Origin: an uncultured Poribacteria bacterium
Lineage (GTDB): Bacteria > Poribacteria > WGA-4E > PCPOR2b
DNA length: 64,000 nucleotides
NCBI GenBank assembly: GCA_958296125.1
Contig: OY282444.1
Location: forward strand, 4,497,623 to 4,561,622
Direction of reading: 5' to 3'
Shown: positions 15,399 through 22,238 of the stretch, piece by piece
Layout of the letters: each line of letters opens with the position of its first letter
How positions within the stretch are numbered: the stretch's first letter is position 1
Translations under genes and position numbers: made by a program
Notes under the pieces: model-generated
Database searches by the model: none
What the model was told of the DNA's origin: nothing
The model's input: only the letters and a program-made list of their open reading frames with translations

Positions 15399-16175
15399 TT
15401 ATCCGTACCGGCCTTCGATATAATCTGCCGTTTTTGTACTCTTGGGCATTAGAAACAAATCCTCAGTGCGGGTATGTTCGACAATCTCACCGAGCAGCAT
15501 GAAGATACATTCATCGCTCACACGCCGCGCTTGAGCCATATTGTGCGTGACAATCAGAATGGTGTAGTGCCCCGCGAGCTCCAACATCAATTCTTCAACT
15601 GCCCGCGTCCCTTTGGCATCAAGGGTGGAACACGGTTCGTCCATCAAAATCACTCGCGGTTTCAGCGGCAGCAGCCGAGCTATGCACAACTTTTGCTGCT
15701 GTTCGAGTTGTAAGGTAGTCGCCTTCACCTTTAGTTGATCTTTCAGATCGTCCCAAAGGAAGACCTCCCTTAACGCCGCTTCAACAATCTCGTCAGTTTG
15801 CGACTTCTTCCGCCTGCGCTGTTCAGAATGGATTCGTAAACCGAAAATGATATTTTCGTAAACGGAGATTGGCAGGGGATTTGGACGCTGAAACACCATG
15901 CCGACGTTTTTTCGCAGTTCCGGCAGTGAAACGTCCGAATCGTAGATATTTTTACCGAGGATTTGAACCTCGCCGATCGTCGTGACATTGCCGTAGCGTT
16001 CGTTCACACGGTTGAAACAGCGCAGCAACGTGGTCTTGCCGCATCCGGAGGGTCCAATGAGCCCGGTTATCAAACCGTCAACAATCTTCACGCTCACATT
16101 GATAAGTGCCTGAAAGTCAGCGTACCATAGGTTAAGTTGACTGGTTTCGATGCTATATCTTTTGTCTGCGCTCAT
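15399..16175 (-). CDS. pstB: Phosphate ABC transporter ATPase with degenerate signature motif (second PstB)
   Basis: This 258-residue PstB-family ATPase has Walker A GPSGCGKTT (41-49), Q-loop Gln96, Walker B ILMDE (Asp179, Glu180) and switch His211 (VTHN), all intact. The ABC signature, LSGGQ in the family, reads LQLEQ at 155-159. In a dimer the signature acts in trans, so this subunit can bind ATP but would contribute a poor signature to its partner. Its start overlaps the stop of the other pstB by 4 bases (ATGA), giving translational coupling. It is the last gene of the pst operon. Confidence 0.88.
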   Translation of the reverse strand: MSADKRYSIETSQLNLWYADFQALINVSVKIVDGLITGLIGPSGCGKTTLLRCFNRVNERYGNVTTIGEVQILGKNIYDSDVSLPELRKNVGMVFQRPNPLPISVYENIIFGLRIHSEQRRRKKSQTDEIVEAALREVFLWDDLKDQLKVKATTLQLEQQQKLCIARLLPLKPRVILMDEPCSTLDAKGTRAVEELMLELAGHYTILIVTHNMAQARRVSDECIFMLLGEIVEHTRTEDLFLMPKSTKTADYIEGRYG

Positions 16176-16945
16176 CCAAAGTTTCCATTCACATAGTCGT
16201 AAGTCAGTCTGTTCGCCGGTGAGTCGGAGAAAATGATGTCGTTGTTGTTGATTTCGATTAGCTCGTTCTCGAATATAAAAGCGGTGCGGCCTGCTAAACG
16301 GCGTGCCTGTTGAATCAAATTGGTGACGAGGATGATGGTAATCTGGGAGCGTAATTCTTTGAGGATATCCTCAATTCGCATGGTCGTCACCGGATCGATG
16401 GCAATCGAAAATTCGTCGAGGCAGAGGATTTCGGGTTGGTGTGAGAGGGCGCGGGCGATGGTCAAGCGCTGCTGCTGTCCCCCCGACAGCTTCGTACCAA
16501 GACTTTTGAGCCGATCTTTGACCTCATCCCAAAGTGCTGCCTGTTGCAGACAACGCTCGACAAGTTCGTCTAACTCGCTCCGTTTGCGGATGCCCGCAGT
16601 CCGGGGCGCGAAGGCAACATTATCGTAGATGGACAAGGGCAGGCCGACCGGCAGCGGAAATACCATCCCAATTCGCCGGCGCAGTTGGTTGACGTTTTTG
16701 ATGCTTTTCACATCCGTGCCATCGATTTTCACCGAGCCGCTGACCTGCGCGTTTGGCTCTAATTCAATCGTACGGTTGATAGTTTTCAACAGCGTTGTTT
16801 TACCCGATTGCGCCGGACCGATGATGCCAAGTATTTCATTCTCGTATATATCGAAAGAAATCCCTTTGAGGGCTTCCACCCCGTCGTATCGGACCGTGAG
16901 ATCGGCGATTTCAATTTTCTTTGTAGAATTAGATATTTTTGCCAA
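16172..16945 (-). CDS. pstB: Phosphate ABC transporter ATPase with intact signature but altered Q- and H-loops (first PstB)
   Basis: This 257-residue PstB-family ATPase has Walker A GPAQSGKTT (43-51), signature LSGGQ (153-157) and Walker B ILCLDE (Asp177, Glu178). The Q-loop Gln is Pro97 (MVFPLP) and the switch His is Asn209 (VTNLIQQA). The D-loop also departs from the usual SALD (IAID). The defects complement those of the neighbouring PstB, as in asymmetric heterodimeric ABC transporters that have one catalytic and one degenerate site. It couples by ATGA overlap to the next pstB and follows pstA. Confidence 0.88.
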   Translation of the reverse strand: MAKISNSTKKIEIADLTVRYDGVEALKGISFDIYENEILGIIGPAQSGKTTLLKTINRTIELEPNAQVSGSVKIDGTDVKSIKNVNQLRRRIGMVFPLPVGLPLSIYDNVAFAPRTAGIRKRSELDELVERCLQQAALWDEVKDRLKSLGTKLSGGQQQRLTIARALSHQPEILCLDEFSIAIDPVTTMRIEDILKELRSQITIILVTNLIQQARRLAGRTAFIFENELIEINNNDIIFSDSPANRLTYDYVNGNFG

Positions 16946-17035: not shown

Positions 17036-17986
17036 CTACCACCGTTTCCGAGACCGCAGATACACGCGCAGCACAATCGCTAGCGCGTTCACCATCAGCA
17101 CAGTGCCCAAAAGCACAATGGCTGTACCGTACTCTAAAGCGTCGGGAACGCCCGGAACTTGCGTCGAAAGTTGGTACAGGTGCATTGAGAGTGCCATAAA
17201 CCGATCGAACAGACCGTAGGCAAGCACATCCCCTTCAGAGATGGCCTTAAAAAATACTGCTCCGGTAAACATAATCGGCGCAGTCTCGCCCGCCGCCCTT
17301 GACACTTGTAAAATTACCCCGGTAAGTATACCGCTGATTGAATTTGGCAGGACGATGCCACGAATCGTCTGCCACCGCGTTGCGCCGGTATTCCAACACG
17401 CTTCCCGGAATGCCATCGGAACAGCCCCGAGTGCTTCTTTTGTGCTTGCAATGATAACCGGCAACGTCATAATCGCCAATGTGAGCGAGGCGGCTAAAAC
17501 CGAACGCCCCATCCTTGCAAAATACACGAAGGCACCGACACCAAAAAGTGCGTGAACGATACTCGGCACACCGGCGAGATTGACCACTGCAAGGTTGATT
17601 ATTCGGGTGAACCAACTTTCGCGGGCGTATTCGTTTAGATAGACTGCTGCTAGCACGCCAACCGGTGCGGAAACGAGCAGCGAAATTATCACGATGTAAA
17701 TTGTTCCAAGCAGCGGTGCCCATATCCCACCGGCTCTCATCCCCTTTTCAGGATTCATGAAAAAGAACTCCGGTGACAAGATCGGTGCCGCCTTGACAAA
17801 GAGATATACAACGATGAGAACAAGTGGCAAAATCATCAATAGCGTCATCACGAAGAAGATGCATCGTGCGATATTCTCCGTCAGTTGTTTTTTGCGACTC
17901 TGCTCGGTTGCCGTGAACATCAATTTAGGTTCGATGATTTCTGGAGAGTCTGGAGAGGTGGAGGAGGGGACCGTATCTGTTGGCAT
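17036..17986 (-). CDS. pstA: Phosphate ABC transporter permease PstA
   Basis: This 316-residue inner-membrane permease has a long cytoplasmic N-terminus and about six membrane segments. The binding-protein-dependent transport loop near residue 225 (EACWNTGATRWQTIRGIVLP) contacts the ATPase. With PstC it forms the phosphate channel. It lies 19 bases after pstC and 90 bases before the first pstB in the same operon. Confidence 0.93.
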   Translation of the reverse strand: MPTDTVPSSTSPDSPEIIEPKLMFTATEQSRKKQLTENIARCIFFVMTLLMILPLVLIVVYLFVKAAPILSPEFFFMNPEKGMRAGGIWAPLLGTIYIVIISLLVSAPVGVLAAVYLNEYARESWFTRIINLAVVNLAGVPSIVHALFGVGAFVYFARMGRSVLAASLTLAIMTLPVIIASTKEALGAVPMAFREACWNTGATRWQTIRGIVLPNSISGILTGVILQVSRAAGETAPIMFTGAVFFKAISEGDVLAYGLFDRFMALSMHLYQLSTQVPGVPDALEYGTAIVLLGTVLMVNALAIVLRVYLRSRKRW

Positions 17987-18005: not shown

Positions 18006-18914
18006 CTACGCCTTTTCGCGGATGCCTTTAATCACAAGGTCTGTGACAAAGTTCACGATAAATGTAATTGAAAACAGCAAAACGCCGATGATAAACAACA
18101 CACGATAATGATCGCTTCCCACTGCTGCCTCACCTAATTCGGCTGCAATCGTGGCGGTCAATGTGCGGACAGAATCGAAAGGACTGGTCGGAATTTTCAC
18201 TGCATGACCCGTTGTCATCAGCACCGCCATGGTTTCACCCACAGCGCGGCCAACACCCAATAGCACCGCTGCGAGCAGTCCATTCTTCGCTGTGGGCAGC
18301 AACACGCGATAAATCACTTGCCATCGCGTTGCGCCGAGTGCTTCAGCGGCTTCTCGATACGAATCCGGGACAGCTTTGAGCGCGTCCTCACCGATAGAGA
18401 CAATAATGGGGACGCTCATCAGTGCCAGAATGATGCCACCGTTTAGCATCGTCAAGCCAATCGGCACGGTGAACAGTTCGATAATCAGCGCGTTCATCAC
18501 CGTCAAACCGATAAAGCCCCACACGACGGACGGAATTGCCGCGAGTAACTCAATGACGATTTTGAGTGTCTCTTTCAGTTTTGGCCCACAAAATTCGGAC
18601 ACGAAGATAGCTGCCCCAAGCCCAAATGGTACAGCGATAACCATCGCCAAGGCGGTCACGCTAAACGTGCCTGCGATTAATGCCAATACGCCGTAACGTT
18701 TGTTATTTAGAGAGGTGGGATACCAATCGGGGCTTGTGAGAAACTCAACGATATCCAGTCCGCCGAAGAAAAACCCCATCCCTTCGCGGAAGACAAAGAA
18801 AAATATGCCAAAGACGAAAATAATTGCGCTGATACCGCACAGACGAATAATTCCTTCGATAACTGGCTCAAGCCAACGTTCCAGTTGATGAAAAACGTTC
18901 GCGATTGTTTTCAT
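18006..18914 (-). CDS. pstC: Phosphate ABC transporter permease PstC
   Basis: This 302-residue permease has six predicted membrane segments and the EAA-type loop EAAEALGATRWQVIYRVLLP, which couples to the ATPase. The C-terminus has the typical PstC segment before the last membrane helix. It pairs with PstA. The gene sits between pstS and pstA, 57 bases after the former. Confidence 0.93.
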   Translation of the reverse strand: MKTIANVFHQLERWLEPVIEGIIRLCGISAIIFVFGIFFFVFREGMGFFFGGLDIVEFLTSPDWYPTSLNNKRYGVLALIAGTFSVTALAMVIAVPFGLGAAIFVSEFCGPKLKETLKIVIELLAAIPSVVWGFIGLTVMNALIIELFTVPIGLTMLNGGIILALMSVPIIVSIGEDALKAVPDSYREAAEALGATRWQVIYRVLLPTAKNGLLAAVLLGVGRAVGETMAVLMTTGHAVKIPTSPFDSVRTLTATIAAELGEAAVGSDHYRVLFIIGVLLFSITFIVNFVTDLVIKGIREKA

Positions 18915-18971: not shown

Positions 18972-19880
18972 TCATTGCTGTCCGACGGGGACGTAACCCG
19001 TTTTCTCAACAATCGCCTGTCCCGCTGGCGAAAAGATCCAATCCAGGAAAGACTGTTCCTGCGGTTCTGGTGTTCCTAGCGAATACATATACAAGGGCCG
19101 TGTAATTGGATACACGCCATCCATCACGCCTTGGACTGTGGGTGCGTAGGCGGTATCACCGATGTTTTTGGCAATTTTGAGCATCTTCACCTCTACTGTA
19201 GCGTACCCCATGCCGCTATAACCAATTGCACACGGTGTATGTGCAATGAGTCCGACAACATCCTTGGAACCGTGTAGGTCTCTTGAGCCGAGCTTATAAT
19301 CTCGATGCCTGCCGAGAATCGCCTCGCGGAAATAGAAGAACGTCCCGGAATTCGATTGTCGGCTCACCCGAATAATCTCGTCATTGACGCACTTGCTATT
19401 TTCGATGCCGAGTTGAGACCATTTAGTTAGGTTTCCACCTTCTCCGTAGATGTTGGCGAGTTGATCTATCGAGATTTCATCGAGCGGGTTGTCCTTGTGG
19501 ACGTAAACAGCAAGCGCATCGTGTCCAACGATGAACTCTTTCGGGGCTTCGCCGGTATTCTGTTTCGCGCGTTCACCCTCCTCTGGGGTTATTTGACGGC
19601 TACAATTCGCGATGTCCACCGTGTTACTAATCAGCGCAGCGATGCCGGTTCCTGAACCGCCACCGGAAACCTCAATGGACACATTGGGCTCGACTGTAGC
19701 GTATTCCTCTGCCCACCCCTGTGCGAGATTGACCATCGTATCAGAGCCGGCGTTCTGAATCACGAACTTTTCCGCTTTGTCAGTCTCATTTTTCCCACCA
19801 ATCTCATCCTTCTTTGAACATCCGCTTGAAAAGAGACAAGATGCCACTATAACAATAGCGCACAGCACCTTATTGAACAT
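18972..19880 (-). CDS. pstS: Phosphate-binding lipoprotein PstS
   Basis: The periplasmic phosphate receptor has a lipoprotein signal (hydrophobic core then SSGC, Cys near residue 21). The phosphate-binding segments are GSDTM and SGGGSGTGIAAL, with SRQSNSGTFFYF further on. The ATG at 19880 is chosen because AGGAGGAGG precedes it and because upstream in-frame codons are highly basic and lie inside phoU. The start overlaps the end of phoU by 11 bases, so translation is probably coupled. Length 302 residues. Confidence 0.93.
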   Translation of the reverse strand: MFNKVLCAIVIVASCLFSSGCSKKDEIGGKNETDKAEKFVIQNAGSDTMVNLAQGWAEEYATVEPNVSIEVSGGGSGTGIAALISNTVDIANCSRQITPEEGERAKQNTGEAPKEFIVGHDALAVYVHKDNPLDEISIDQLANIYGEGGNLTKWSQLGIENSKCVNDEIIRVSRQSNSGTFFYFREAILGRHRDYKLGSRDLHGSKDVVGLIAHTPCAIGYSGMGYATVEVKMLKIAKNIGDTAYAPTVQGVMDGVYPITRPLYMYSLGTPEPQEQSFLDWIFSPAGQAIVEKTGYVPVGQQ

Positions 19881-20997
19881 TATCCTCCTCCTTCTTAACA
19901 TCATCGCCGAGAATTGCCTGAACCAGTTCTCGAAGATGTGTCTCAAAAAATTGAAATGTCTTTTGATATGCAGCTTGGACTTCCTCTTCAGTCCCCTCAA
20001 GTCTTGATGGATCTTGCATTTCCCAACTGATACGAACCGGCCTCGACGGCGACGATGGGAGCGCTCTTTCTGCCTCCTCACAGAGCGATACAATGATCTC
20101 GTAATCTTTGAGGTCTAAGATTTGGCTTAAATATTTGGAAGTCTGGCCAGAAATATCAATACCTTTTTCCGCCATAAATTGTACGGTTTTTGAATCTAGA
20201 GGCTGGGATGCGACACCGGCACTGCTGAACAGAATCCTTTTCGATCCGAGTGCATTGCCGATACCGACGGCCATCTGTCCTCGGCACGCATCATGTTCGG
20301 CGACAAAAAGCACTCGCAACGCCTGCTGGTAGTCATGTCTTAGATCTTCACCGGTACACATATACAAGACTTCCTCACAAATATTGCTTGCCTGATTCGC
20401 TACACGCTCCAAGCAACTGACAATCGTGACCAGGGGCACCAGTGCCTCTGATGGCAATGCGCCCTTGATATGTAATTGGATTAAGTCGCGATGAATTTCA
20501 TAGCGCAGGTTGTCTATCGTTCGTTCTTTTTCCTTTTCCCTTGTCGCCTTCGCCAATTCAGCATCGTTTTCACCAAAGGCTTGCAGGGCATTACGGAGGA
20601 ACGGAATTGCAAGGTTGGCAATGTCGATGAGTGTGGGGTAGGAGGCCTGGGCACCCAAGTCACTGACGATCGAAAATCGCCGAGCAATGGTTTTCGCATA
20701 ATCACCGACACGCTCCAATTCGGTGTTGATCTTGATGACCGAATAAACAAAGCGCATTTGACCCGCGACAGGCAGGTGCTTAATCAGGAATCTCTGGCAA
20801 AGTGATTCCAGTGCCTCCTCTAACTCATCAATGTACCGGTCCCTTAAGATCACAGCATAAGCCAACTGTCGATCATTATGCTTAATCGCACCCAGACAGG
20901 TCTCTAACGCTTTTTCGGCTAATTCGCCCATCTCAATTACCTTACTGCGAATCAGGTCAATATCCTGTTGCATATTGGCTTCCAAGTGAGATTGCAT
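19870..20997 (-). CDS. phoU: PhoU fused to an ArsC/low-molecular-weight phosphatase-like domain lacking its catalytic Cys
   Basis: Residues about 5-215 are the two three-helix bundles of PhoU, the negative regulator linking the Pst transporter to the phosphate response. Residues about 225-365 match the low-molecular-weight tyrosine phosphatase/arsenate reductase fold: VLFVAEHDACRGQMA, then a hydrophobic strand with SLC (Cys306) and a WEMQDP segment that keeps the catalytic-loop DP (329-330). The P-loop nucleophile, the first Cys of CX5R, is Ala233, while Arg239 is kept, so catalysis is unlikely. The domain may instead bind phosphate or arsenate as a sensor. ATG at 20997 has GGAGGGG upstream. 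Confidence 0.88.
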   Translation of the reverse strand: MQSHLEANMQQDIDLIRSKVIEMGELAEKALETCLGAIKHNDRQLAYAVILRDRYIDELEEALESLCQRFLIKHLPVAGQMRFVYSVIKINTELERVGDYAKTIARRFSIVSDLGAQASYPTLIDIANLAIPFLRNALQAFGENDAELAKATREKEKERTIDNLRYEIHRDLIQLHIKGALPSEALVPLVTIVSCLERVANQASNICEEVLYMCTGEDLRHDYQQALRVLFVAEHDACRGQMAVGIGNALGSKRILFSSAGVASQPLDSKTVQFMAEKGIDISGQTSKYLSQILDLKDYEIIVSLCEEAERALPSSPSRPVRISWEMQDPSRLEGTEEEVQAAYQKTFQFFETHLRELVQAILGDDVKKEEDNVQ

Positions 20998-21077: not shown

Positions 21078-22112
21078 CTAAAACCTGAAGAATGCCGTCA
21101 AACGCGGCGTAATCGCTGCGTCAGGTTTGGTACTGTTATCAGGTTCATCGTAAAAAACAAAGGCGAGATTGGGCATGATATGGAACGCCTCGATTGGTGT
21201 CCAATCCAACCCAACAAGAATCATATTCGGTGCTGCTGTATCCTCAAAAGGGATATAAGCAATTCGCTTCCCAGAGGGGTTCGGATCGAACAATCGATCA
21301 AATCGAGCGAAAGCCCACACCTTATTCTCGATCAATTGCGCTGCACCGAACACCGAGCTCGCTAAAAGGTTCAGGTCGTCCTTCTGCCTCGTCTGATTGG
21401 CAAGCTGAACGCCGAGTCGAAATTGTTTCTGCTGATAGCCGAGCAAACCTTGTAATGTGTACCATCTGCCCCGATCTGCCGCATTTTCCAAATCGGCATA
21501 TCCTTCAACGATAATGCCTTTAACAGGCTTGGCTGCGAGCGAAAAAGCGATCTTCTTGTTATCATCAATTTCCGCACTTGTGCCCATCCCATTTGCGAAT
21601 GTCAAATGGTAGCTAACTTTCTTTGATTTGTCAAGATCGCCTTGTAGGGCTATACCGAAGTCGGAGCCACTCCCCATTTTGTGAAGGTCAACCACCGTTT
21701 TTGCAACAGATCGATAGCCCCACACCCTTTCAACATTCTTCCAAGTCGGGTTGCTGGATAATCCGAAATAAATATTTGTCCGCCACTTGGGTTGCTTCCA
21801 CCTTATGTAGCCGTTTTTTAGCACCGGCACAGTCTTTGAGGATGTCTGGCGGGATGCAGGAAATGATTGACCATTCATTTCCAGGCGAAACCGCATGGAA
21901 AATGTGTCCGACAACTCCTTGTCGTAATCAAAGTAGACGCGCCGATACTGAAATCCATTTCGATTCTCAAGTTCAGCGTCGTGAGCCTTCAGCACGTAGT
22001 AATAATCGCCAAAAAAGTAACCACTAATCTTGCCCGCATCGCCCCATAAAACAGCGGGACTACTCAACAATAGACACATAAAAGGCAAAATGCCGTATCG
22101 AAAACATCTCAT
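21078..22112 (-). CDS. Outer-membrane porin, probably phosphate-related
   Basis: The 344-residue protein begins with a signal peptide (MRCFRYGILPFMCLLLSS, then AVLWGD) and continues as alternating aromatic-rich strands that end in Phe, typical of an outer-membrane beta-barrel. Gene order upstream of phoU and pstS suggests a phosphate-selective OprP/OprO-like role, inferred from context. The ATG at 22112 has GGAGG upstream. In-frame codons farther upstream are only translated tandem repeats and are rejected as the start. Confidence 0.8.
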   Translation of the reverse strand: MRCFRYGILPFMCLLLSSPAVLWGDAGKISGYFFGDYYYVLKAHDAELENRNGFQYRRVYFDYDKELSDTFSMRFRLEMNGQSFPASRQTSSKTVPVLKNGYIRWKQPKWRTNIYFGLSSNPTWKNVERVWGYRSVAKTVVDLHKMGSGSDFGIALQGDLDKSKKVSYHLTFANGMGTSAEIDDNKKIAFSLAAKPVKGIIVEGYADLENAADRGRWYTLQGLLGYQQKQFRLGVQLANQTRQKDDLNLLASSVFGAAQLIENKVWAFARFDRLFDPNPSGKRIAYIPFEDTAAPNMILVGLDWTPIEAFHIMPNLAFVFYDEPDNSTKPDAAITPRLTAFFRF

Positions 22113-22144
22113 CGTAAAGCCTCCGTTCGATAAAGTTTTTGTGC

Positions 22145-22174
22145 AATCACATTTTTGTGAATCACATTTTTGTG
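22145..22174. repeat. Tandem 15-bp duplication upstream of the porin-phoU-pst genes
   Basis: AATCACATTTTTGTG occurs twice in direct succession (22145-22159 and 22160-22174), followed by a partial third AGTCAC. It lies 33 bases upstream of the porin start codon and may contain operator copies. Confidence 0.8.
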
Positions 22175-22194
22175 AGTCACTAACATCAGTCAAC

Positions 22195-22238
22195 TTAAAT
22201 ATACCATAAATACCAATTAAATATACCATAAATACCAA
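22195..22238. repeat. Tandem 22-bp duplication upstream of the porin gene
   Basis: TTAAATATACCATAAATACCAA is perfectly repeated at 22195-22216 and 22217-22238. The AT-rich unit on the minus strand could duplicate a promoter or activator site for the phosphate genes. No consensus Pho box is recognised. Confidence 0.8.

Follow-up and report, generated by a model that had tools for sequence, protein, structure and literature searches.

The PhoU-ArsC fusion and its predicted fold

The window analysed here is a stretch of 64,000 nucleotides from the genome of an uncultured Poribacteria bacterium (contig OY282444.1, positions 4,497,623 to 4,561,622), in which a pst phosphate-uptake operon is encoded on the minus strand in the order porin-like gene, phoU*, pstS, pstC, pstA, pstB1 and pstB2. 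The gene called phoU* (19870 to 20997, with its ATG at 20997 and its stop at 19870) is preceded by a GGAGG-type ribosome site and encodes a protein of 375 amino acids in which the regulator PhoU is fused to a domain resembling arsenate reductase (ArsC) and the low-molecular-weight protein tyrosine phosphatases (LMW-PTP), without their nucleophilic Cys. It is the sole PhoU of this Poribacteria genome.

The PhoU domain occupies residues 1-223 (20329 to 20997) and is built of two three-helix bundles; the full-length PhoU profile TIGR02135 covers residues 9-218 with 150.6 bits, for a cut-off of 130.25. The second domain, residues 225-365 (19903 to 20325), is matched over residues 229-357 by Pfam LMWPc (PF01451) with 40.1 bits, for a gathering score of 23.2, and the same family was found in all 20 orthologues tested. 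This domain also aligns with the Bacillus subtilis ArsC of known structure, 1jl3 (E 4e-17), and reaches 79.8 bits against TIGR02691, the equivalog of thioredoxin-type arsenate reductases, far under the cut-off of 174.3. AlphaFold, given an alignment of 20 sequences, returned a model with a mean predicted local distance difference test score of 86.3 and a predicted template modelling (pTM) score of 0.59. In this model, residues 6-217 superpose on Pseudomonas aeruginosa PhoU 4q25 (Z 29.4, 210 residues, root-mean-square deviation 1.6) and residues 226-363 on 1jl3 (Z 21.5, 137 residues, deviation 1.8). The profile, solved-structure and fold comparisons rule out a chance resemblance to LMW-PTP, and a search of a viral structure library gave no match with E ≤ 0.001. 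A preliminary description of this DNA, made from its letters, had proposed the fusion of PhoU to an ArsC/LMW-phosphatase domain at these positions and had pointed to structure prediction as a check; both the profile matches and the predicted fold agree with it.

Degeneration and descent of the fused domain

In the alignment with B. subtilis ArsC, FLCTGNSCRSQMA of 1jl3 pairs with LFVAEHDACRGQMA of the fused domain, which places Ala233 (codon GCC at 20299-20301) at the position of the catalytic Cys. The P-loop (residues 233-240, 20278 to 20301) has changed from CTGNSCRS to AEHDACRG, that is, besides the nucleophile, T to E, G to H, N to D, S to A and S to G. The preliminary description had correctly assigned Ala233, Cys238, Arg239, Cys306 and the DP pair, as the 1jl3 alignment indicates; its statement that only the nucleophile had been lost did not hold, given the five further P-loop changes and the absence of the second redox Cys of thioredoxin-type ArsC, the first redox Cys being variable. 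The survey of related genomes that it had suggested found Ala fixed at the nucleophile position in the six genomes of this Poribacteria genus, in all of which Arg239, Cys238 and the DP pair (Asp329, Pro330) are also intact; Cys306 is replaced by Ser in two of them. An isolated mutation of the nucleophile is ruled out, the Cys being missing from the six congeners and from the whole clade described below. Within the genus, the dead domain has a ratio of non-synonymous to synonymous substitutions (dN/dS) of 0.105, against 0.102 in the PhoU half, and this equality argues that the domain is maintained.

The distribution of the fusion was followed in a survey covering at most 1,373 genomes. Among named relatives, the nearest copies, 82-87% identical, were found in Poribacteria metagenome-assembled genomes, and the fusion is present in all six genomes of the genus; in sampled genomes from other genera of the same order, the reading frames with PhoU matches were too short to encode the fusion. 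When one genome per species was scanned, full-length orthologues were recovered from KSB1, 'Deltaproteobacteria', Verrucomicrobia and Calditrichaceae, with 43-58% identity. A profile built from these orthologues and used at E ≤ 1e-60 matched 16 of 82 genomes in the KSB1 phylum, 9 of 395 in the phylum of locus L050 and 6 of 387 in the Verrucomicrobia-type phylum, the last including a broken gene (L076) and a fusion with an intact Cys (L077). In four KSB1 loci (L052, L122, L126 and L127) the gene immediately ahead of the fusion encodes an ordinary PhoU, so that two PhoU lie side by side.

Conservation was counted over 46 fused proteins, a set without L077 and without L065, which is truncated, and over a non-redundant set of 33 sequences obtained by thinning to under 70% identity. 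The nucleophile position is held by Asp in 34 proteins, Ala in 6, Ser in 5 and Glu in 1 (Asp 27, Ser 4, Ala 1 and Glu 1 in the non-redundant set). Cys occurs in none of the 46, which supports the loss of catalysis that had been proposed. The P-loop Arg is retained in 22 proteins (14/33 non-redundant) and missing from 24, the general-acid Asp is retained in 35 and missing from 11, and Cys238 or its equivalent is found in 31. The eight-residue P-loops contain on average 1.8 acidic residues (2 in the window protein). Strong conservation falls on core residues, among them F257, S259 and W325, and not on the catalytic positions.

In a maximum-likelihood tree of the LMWP domains, computed without L034 (a long row) and L085, the nucleophile-less domains form one clade relative to standalone ArsC (support 100/99), in which the Ser members branch first and the Poribacteria Ala nests inside Asp lineages. 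This single clade and its branching order suggest that the Cys was lost once, in an ancestor common to several phyla, that Asp was then acquired and that Asp later gave way to Ala in the Poribacteria genus.

The intact-Cys fusion, L077/L090 (genome G266, Verrucomicrobia-type phylum), bears on whether orthologues with a functional nucleophile exist, a point raised in the preliminary description: there is none among the 46 clade members, and this one fusion, with the loop CVQNSARS, apparently arose independently and is encoded next to an ordinary transporter. It shares with the dead-domain family the order PhoU then ArsC within a pst operon and differs from it by its intact Cys and its one canonical PstB, which carries GPSGCGKST, LSGGQ and VTHN. 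In the tree, its ArsC domain falls among the standalone ArsC (99/98). Descent of the dead domain from this catalytic fusion is opposed by the best tree, and forcing all fusions into a single clade costs 17.9 log-likelihood units, although the approximately unbiased test gives no formal rejection (p-AU 0.151). The L077/L090 fusion sits at the 3' side of its canonical pst operon, with a standalone ArsC gene upstream in the same operon. In another locus, L026 (genome G089), an intact standalone ArsC gene directly follows phoU in the pst operon, an adjacency which is a plausible forerunner of a PhoU-ArsC fusion.

The PhoU half has also changed. Both positions of the ERxxD-type motif are recognisable; the first-bundle ERVGD is intact and the second-bundle motif reads ERVAN in the window, with Asp replaced by Asn at residue 201 (20395-20397). 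Among fused proteins, this position is Asp in 38 of 46 and Asn in 7. In the xDLR motif, the position that is commonly acidic holds Gln80 in the window and is never acidic in the 46 fused PhoU, whereas it is D or E in all 23 unfused PhoU found and in L077. An acidic residue here is common in the PhoU family at large, without being established as a defining feature, and the fused family has His or Gln instead. Judging from these alignments, the PhoU half is co-changed with the fusion, acidity at xDLR having been lost family-wide.

The pst operon and its two PstB ATPases

The phoU* gene is followed by pstS (18972 to 19880; TIGR02136 over its cut-off), encoding the phosphate-binding protein, whose start was placed from a ribosome site and overlaps the phoU* stop by 11 nucleotides. 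The permease genes pstC (18006 to 18914; TIGR02138, 284 bits) and pstA (17036 to 17986; TIGR00974, 258 bits) come next, then pstB1 (16172 to 16945) and pstB2 (15399 to 16175). The set from phoU* through pstB2 was found in 41 of 41 loci with sufficient flank, across several phyla and in near-constant order, one locus having pstS ahead of phoU*. The coupling to phosphate transport put forward in the preliminary description is supported by the position of the fusion in the pst operon in every such locus; the PstB pair described below lies in the same operon, outside the coordinates 19870-20997 which that description had covered.

The motifs of the ATP-binding cassette (ABC) are split between the two PstB. 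In the window, PstB1 has the Walker A sequence GPAQSGKT and an intact LSGGQ, with its Q-loop Gln replaced by Pro and its switch His by Asn, while PstB2 has intact Walker A and B, Q-loop and switch His, and LQLEQ for LSGGQ. When all loci were counted, including two with an unfused PhoU (L120 and L121), PstB1 showed Q-loop Gln to Pro, switch His to Asn, DEP to DEF and an intact LSGGQ, each in 44 of 44. PstB2 showed an intact Walker A, the Q-loop Gln in 43 of 43, the switch His in the 42 of 42 that were readable and a signature other than LSGGQ in 43 of 43 (LQLEQ, LSLEK, LLLEQ or similar). The PstB1 sequences make up one clade and the PstB2 sequences another (support 100 by the SH-like approximate likelihood ratio test, SH-aLRT). 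Their scores in the window, 316.4 and 275.9, lie under the 343.2 cut-off of the TIGR00972 equivalog; they are the best PstB matches of the genome, no protein of which passes this cut-off, and 13 of 14 control genomes pass it. The two partners of an ABC dimer share each ATP site: one supplies Walker A/B, Q-loop and His, the other the signature. Given this composite architecture, pairing of PstB1 with PstB2 would give one canonical site and one doubly degenerate site.

In all loci seen, a nucleophile-less fusion implies an asymmetric PstB pair, and the reverse does not hold. A DNA pattern for the degenerate PstB2 signature was found in 6 of the 387 Verrucomicrobia-type phylum genomes, 4 of them fusion genomes; the rule that an asymmetric PstB implies a fusion fails in the other 2 of the 6, those of loci L120 and L121.

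Other arrangements were seen at loci with unfused PhoU. At L011-L032, the majority of unfused-PhoU loci from other Poribacteria genera of the same order, PhoU adjoins a single degenerate PstB homologue with Q-loop Gln to Arg, the signature LSTGQQQLL or LSNGQKQRL and switch His to Asn (FVTNKRR); with the one PstB seen there, both ATP sites would be degenerate. L009 and L010 have a canonical PstB. Directly upstream of phoU*, the window contains a possible outer-membrane porin-like gene (21078 to 22238), which has no Pfam, NCBIfam or PDB match and is retained in the four Poribacteria loci examined. A PhoR model gave 19 histidine-kinase matches, none above the cut-off, and no kinase partner was assigned.

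A proposed pseudoenzyme module in phosphate sensing

The best explanation that we can offer, and one that we hold with only middling confidence, is that the dead domain is a pseudoenzyme module helping PhoU to read or gate an asymmetric Pst importer with a PstB1/PstB2 heterodimer. It builds on the fusion, its fold, the single-origin loss of the nucleophile, purifying selection, operon linkage and the partition of motifs; heterodimer formation, the docking site, the contact made by the domain and the direction of signalling are what we infer. The fusion protein would be the cytoplasmic regulator of this importer variant, and its C-terminal domain, presumably unable to form phospho-cysteine or disulfide intermediates, would be kept as a structural or regulatory module. 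The importer ATPase would be the heterodimer, with a canonical ATP site made of PstB2 Walker A/B, Q-loop and His plus PstB1 LSGGQ, and a degenerate site made of PstB1 Walker A/B, lacking Q-loop Gln and His, plus PstB2 LQLEQ. PhoU would dock on PstB as in E. coli, where it binds PstB and PhoR (PMC4423584). In E. coli PstB, the substitutions Q160K (signature Gln) and E179Q (catalytic Glu) lock opposite signalling states, and it was proposed that the transporter conformation is what is sensed (PMC5775613). Such binding and conformational readout make a contact or gating module the most economical reading of the dead domain: most likely it would supply PhoU with an extra contact that distinguishes or gates the unequal PstB subunits and thereby reports the state of the transporter.

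Several points weigh against this explanation. In L120 and L121 the asymmetric PstB pair is accompanied by an ordinary PhoU without fusion, whose gene lies at the operon's 3' end, so that the dead domain is not required for the pair. The fusion and the pair could be linked by shared operon inheritance alone. The relative orientation of the PhoU and ArsC-like domains is uncertain in the model (pTM 0.59), and the contact between the dead domain and PstB is conjectural. A broader proposal, which we put forward tentatively, is that these loci represent a distinct, horizontally spread Pst class with an obligate PstB1/PstB2 heterodimer, one dead ATP site and the dead-ArsC PhoU as a dedicated state-reader or gate, in place of the symmetric PstB homodimer and plain PhoU with which E. 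coli works.

Two other readings assign the function to the P-loop itself. Phosphatases of this kind often retain oxyanion binding when their Cys is mutated to Ser or Ala, and the preliminary description had proposed an oxyanion sensor, in which the Cys-less loop would bind phosphate or arsenate without chemistry and pass the signal to PhoU. The fold is right, and with Arg239 and Asp329 intact throughout the window's genus, alongside Cys238 and Pro330, anion binding would be possible there; however, the family as a whole does not preserve the pocket. The Arg, which an anion sensor under conservation would be expected to retain, is lost from 24 of 46 orthologues, the acid Asp is absent from 11, and the Asp usually found at the nucleophile position (34/46), in loops that are already acidic, would disfavour phosphate or arsenate binding. 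We therefore consider such a sensor unlikely. The frequency of this Asp (27 of 33 non-redundant members), the dispensable Arg and the nesting of the Ala lineage within Asp lineages would instead suit a self-liganded or phospho-mimic loop, in which Asp fills the anion hole and locks a 'ligand-bound' shape, or is itself phosphorylated, until the change to Ala altered this in Poribacteria. We find this rather improbable, as Ala and Ser members share the same operon and phospho-transfer to Asp would require acid or metal residues.

The remaining two readings ask whether the domain still catalyses or has no function at all. That it is a non-functional passenger in decay might be read from the free drift of catalytic residues among lineages and from one congener (L008) in which a frameshift or an assembly break removes the C-terminus. 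The dN/dS, equal to that of the PhoU half, the full length kept at almost every intact locus across several phyla and the conservation of F257, S259 and W325 make this very doubtful. A residual or altered enzyme, with Cys238, Ser or Asp substituting for the nucleophile, could draw on the 31 of 46 proteins with Cys238 or its equivalent; with Cys238, the general acid and the redox Cys all unconserved and the Arg lost in about half of the family, we hold it to be very improbable.

Compared with known systems, the fusion shares with E. coli PhoU and P. aeruginosa PhoU 4q25 a full-length, two-bundle PhoU encoded with pst genes, and differs in its added C-terminal pseudo-phosphatase, in being the first, not the last, gene of the operon, and in the His or Gln at xDLR and, in the window, the second-bundle Asn. 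With B. subtilis ArsC 1jl3 and PF01451 it has in common the fold, 31% identity to 1jl3 and an alignable P-loop and WxxxDP region; unlike ArsC and LMW-PTP, the fused family lacks the nucleophile Cys and the second redox Cys, has an acidic P-loop and does not conserve the Arg. The trypanosome protein mt-SAF26 (6sga, and 7pua chain FW), described in its PDB entry as a mitoribosome assembly component, likewise has the LMW-PTP fold (Z about 19), but its context is unrelated and it has no PhoU fusion.

Heterodimers with one degenerate site are familiar from ABC exporters. TM287/288, TmrAB, TAP and BmrCD likewise combine one canonical and one degenerate site, with the degeneration partitioned between the partners, whereas Pst imports phosphate and has a regulator of the PhoU type, and its heterodimer is a prediction. 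Enterococcus faecalis also has a pst locus with two pstB genes side by side (PMC12096839); in the pair described here, by contrast, the motifs are split between the two PstB. The open-access literature yielded no paper describing a PhoU-ArsC fusion or an asymmetric Pst ATPase, subscription literature being outside the search, and the fusion with its split PstB pair looks like a so far undescribed form of phosphate uptake and sensing in bacteria. It is also an example of a phosphatase fold that became a pseudoenzyme in bacteria, with a single origin and a change that can be followed from Cys to Ser or Asp and then to Ala in Poribacteria. How PhoU reads the Pst transporter and signals phosphate onward is a long-standing open question. 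The ATP sites of the E. coli transporter are equal, which makes it difficult to say what conformational event is read by PhoU; unequal ATP sites and a fixed non-catalytic PhoU domain in the same operon, across phyla, make the question testable.
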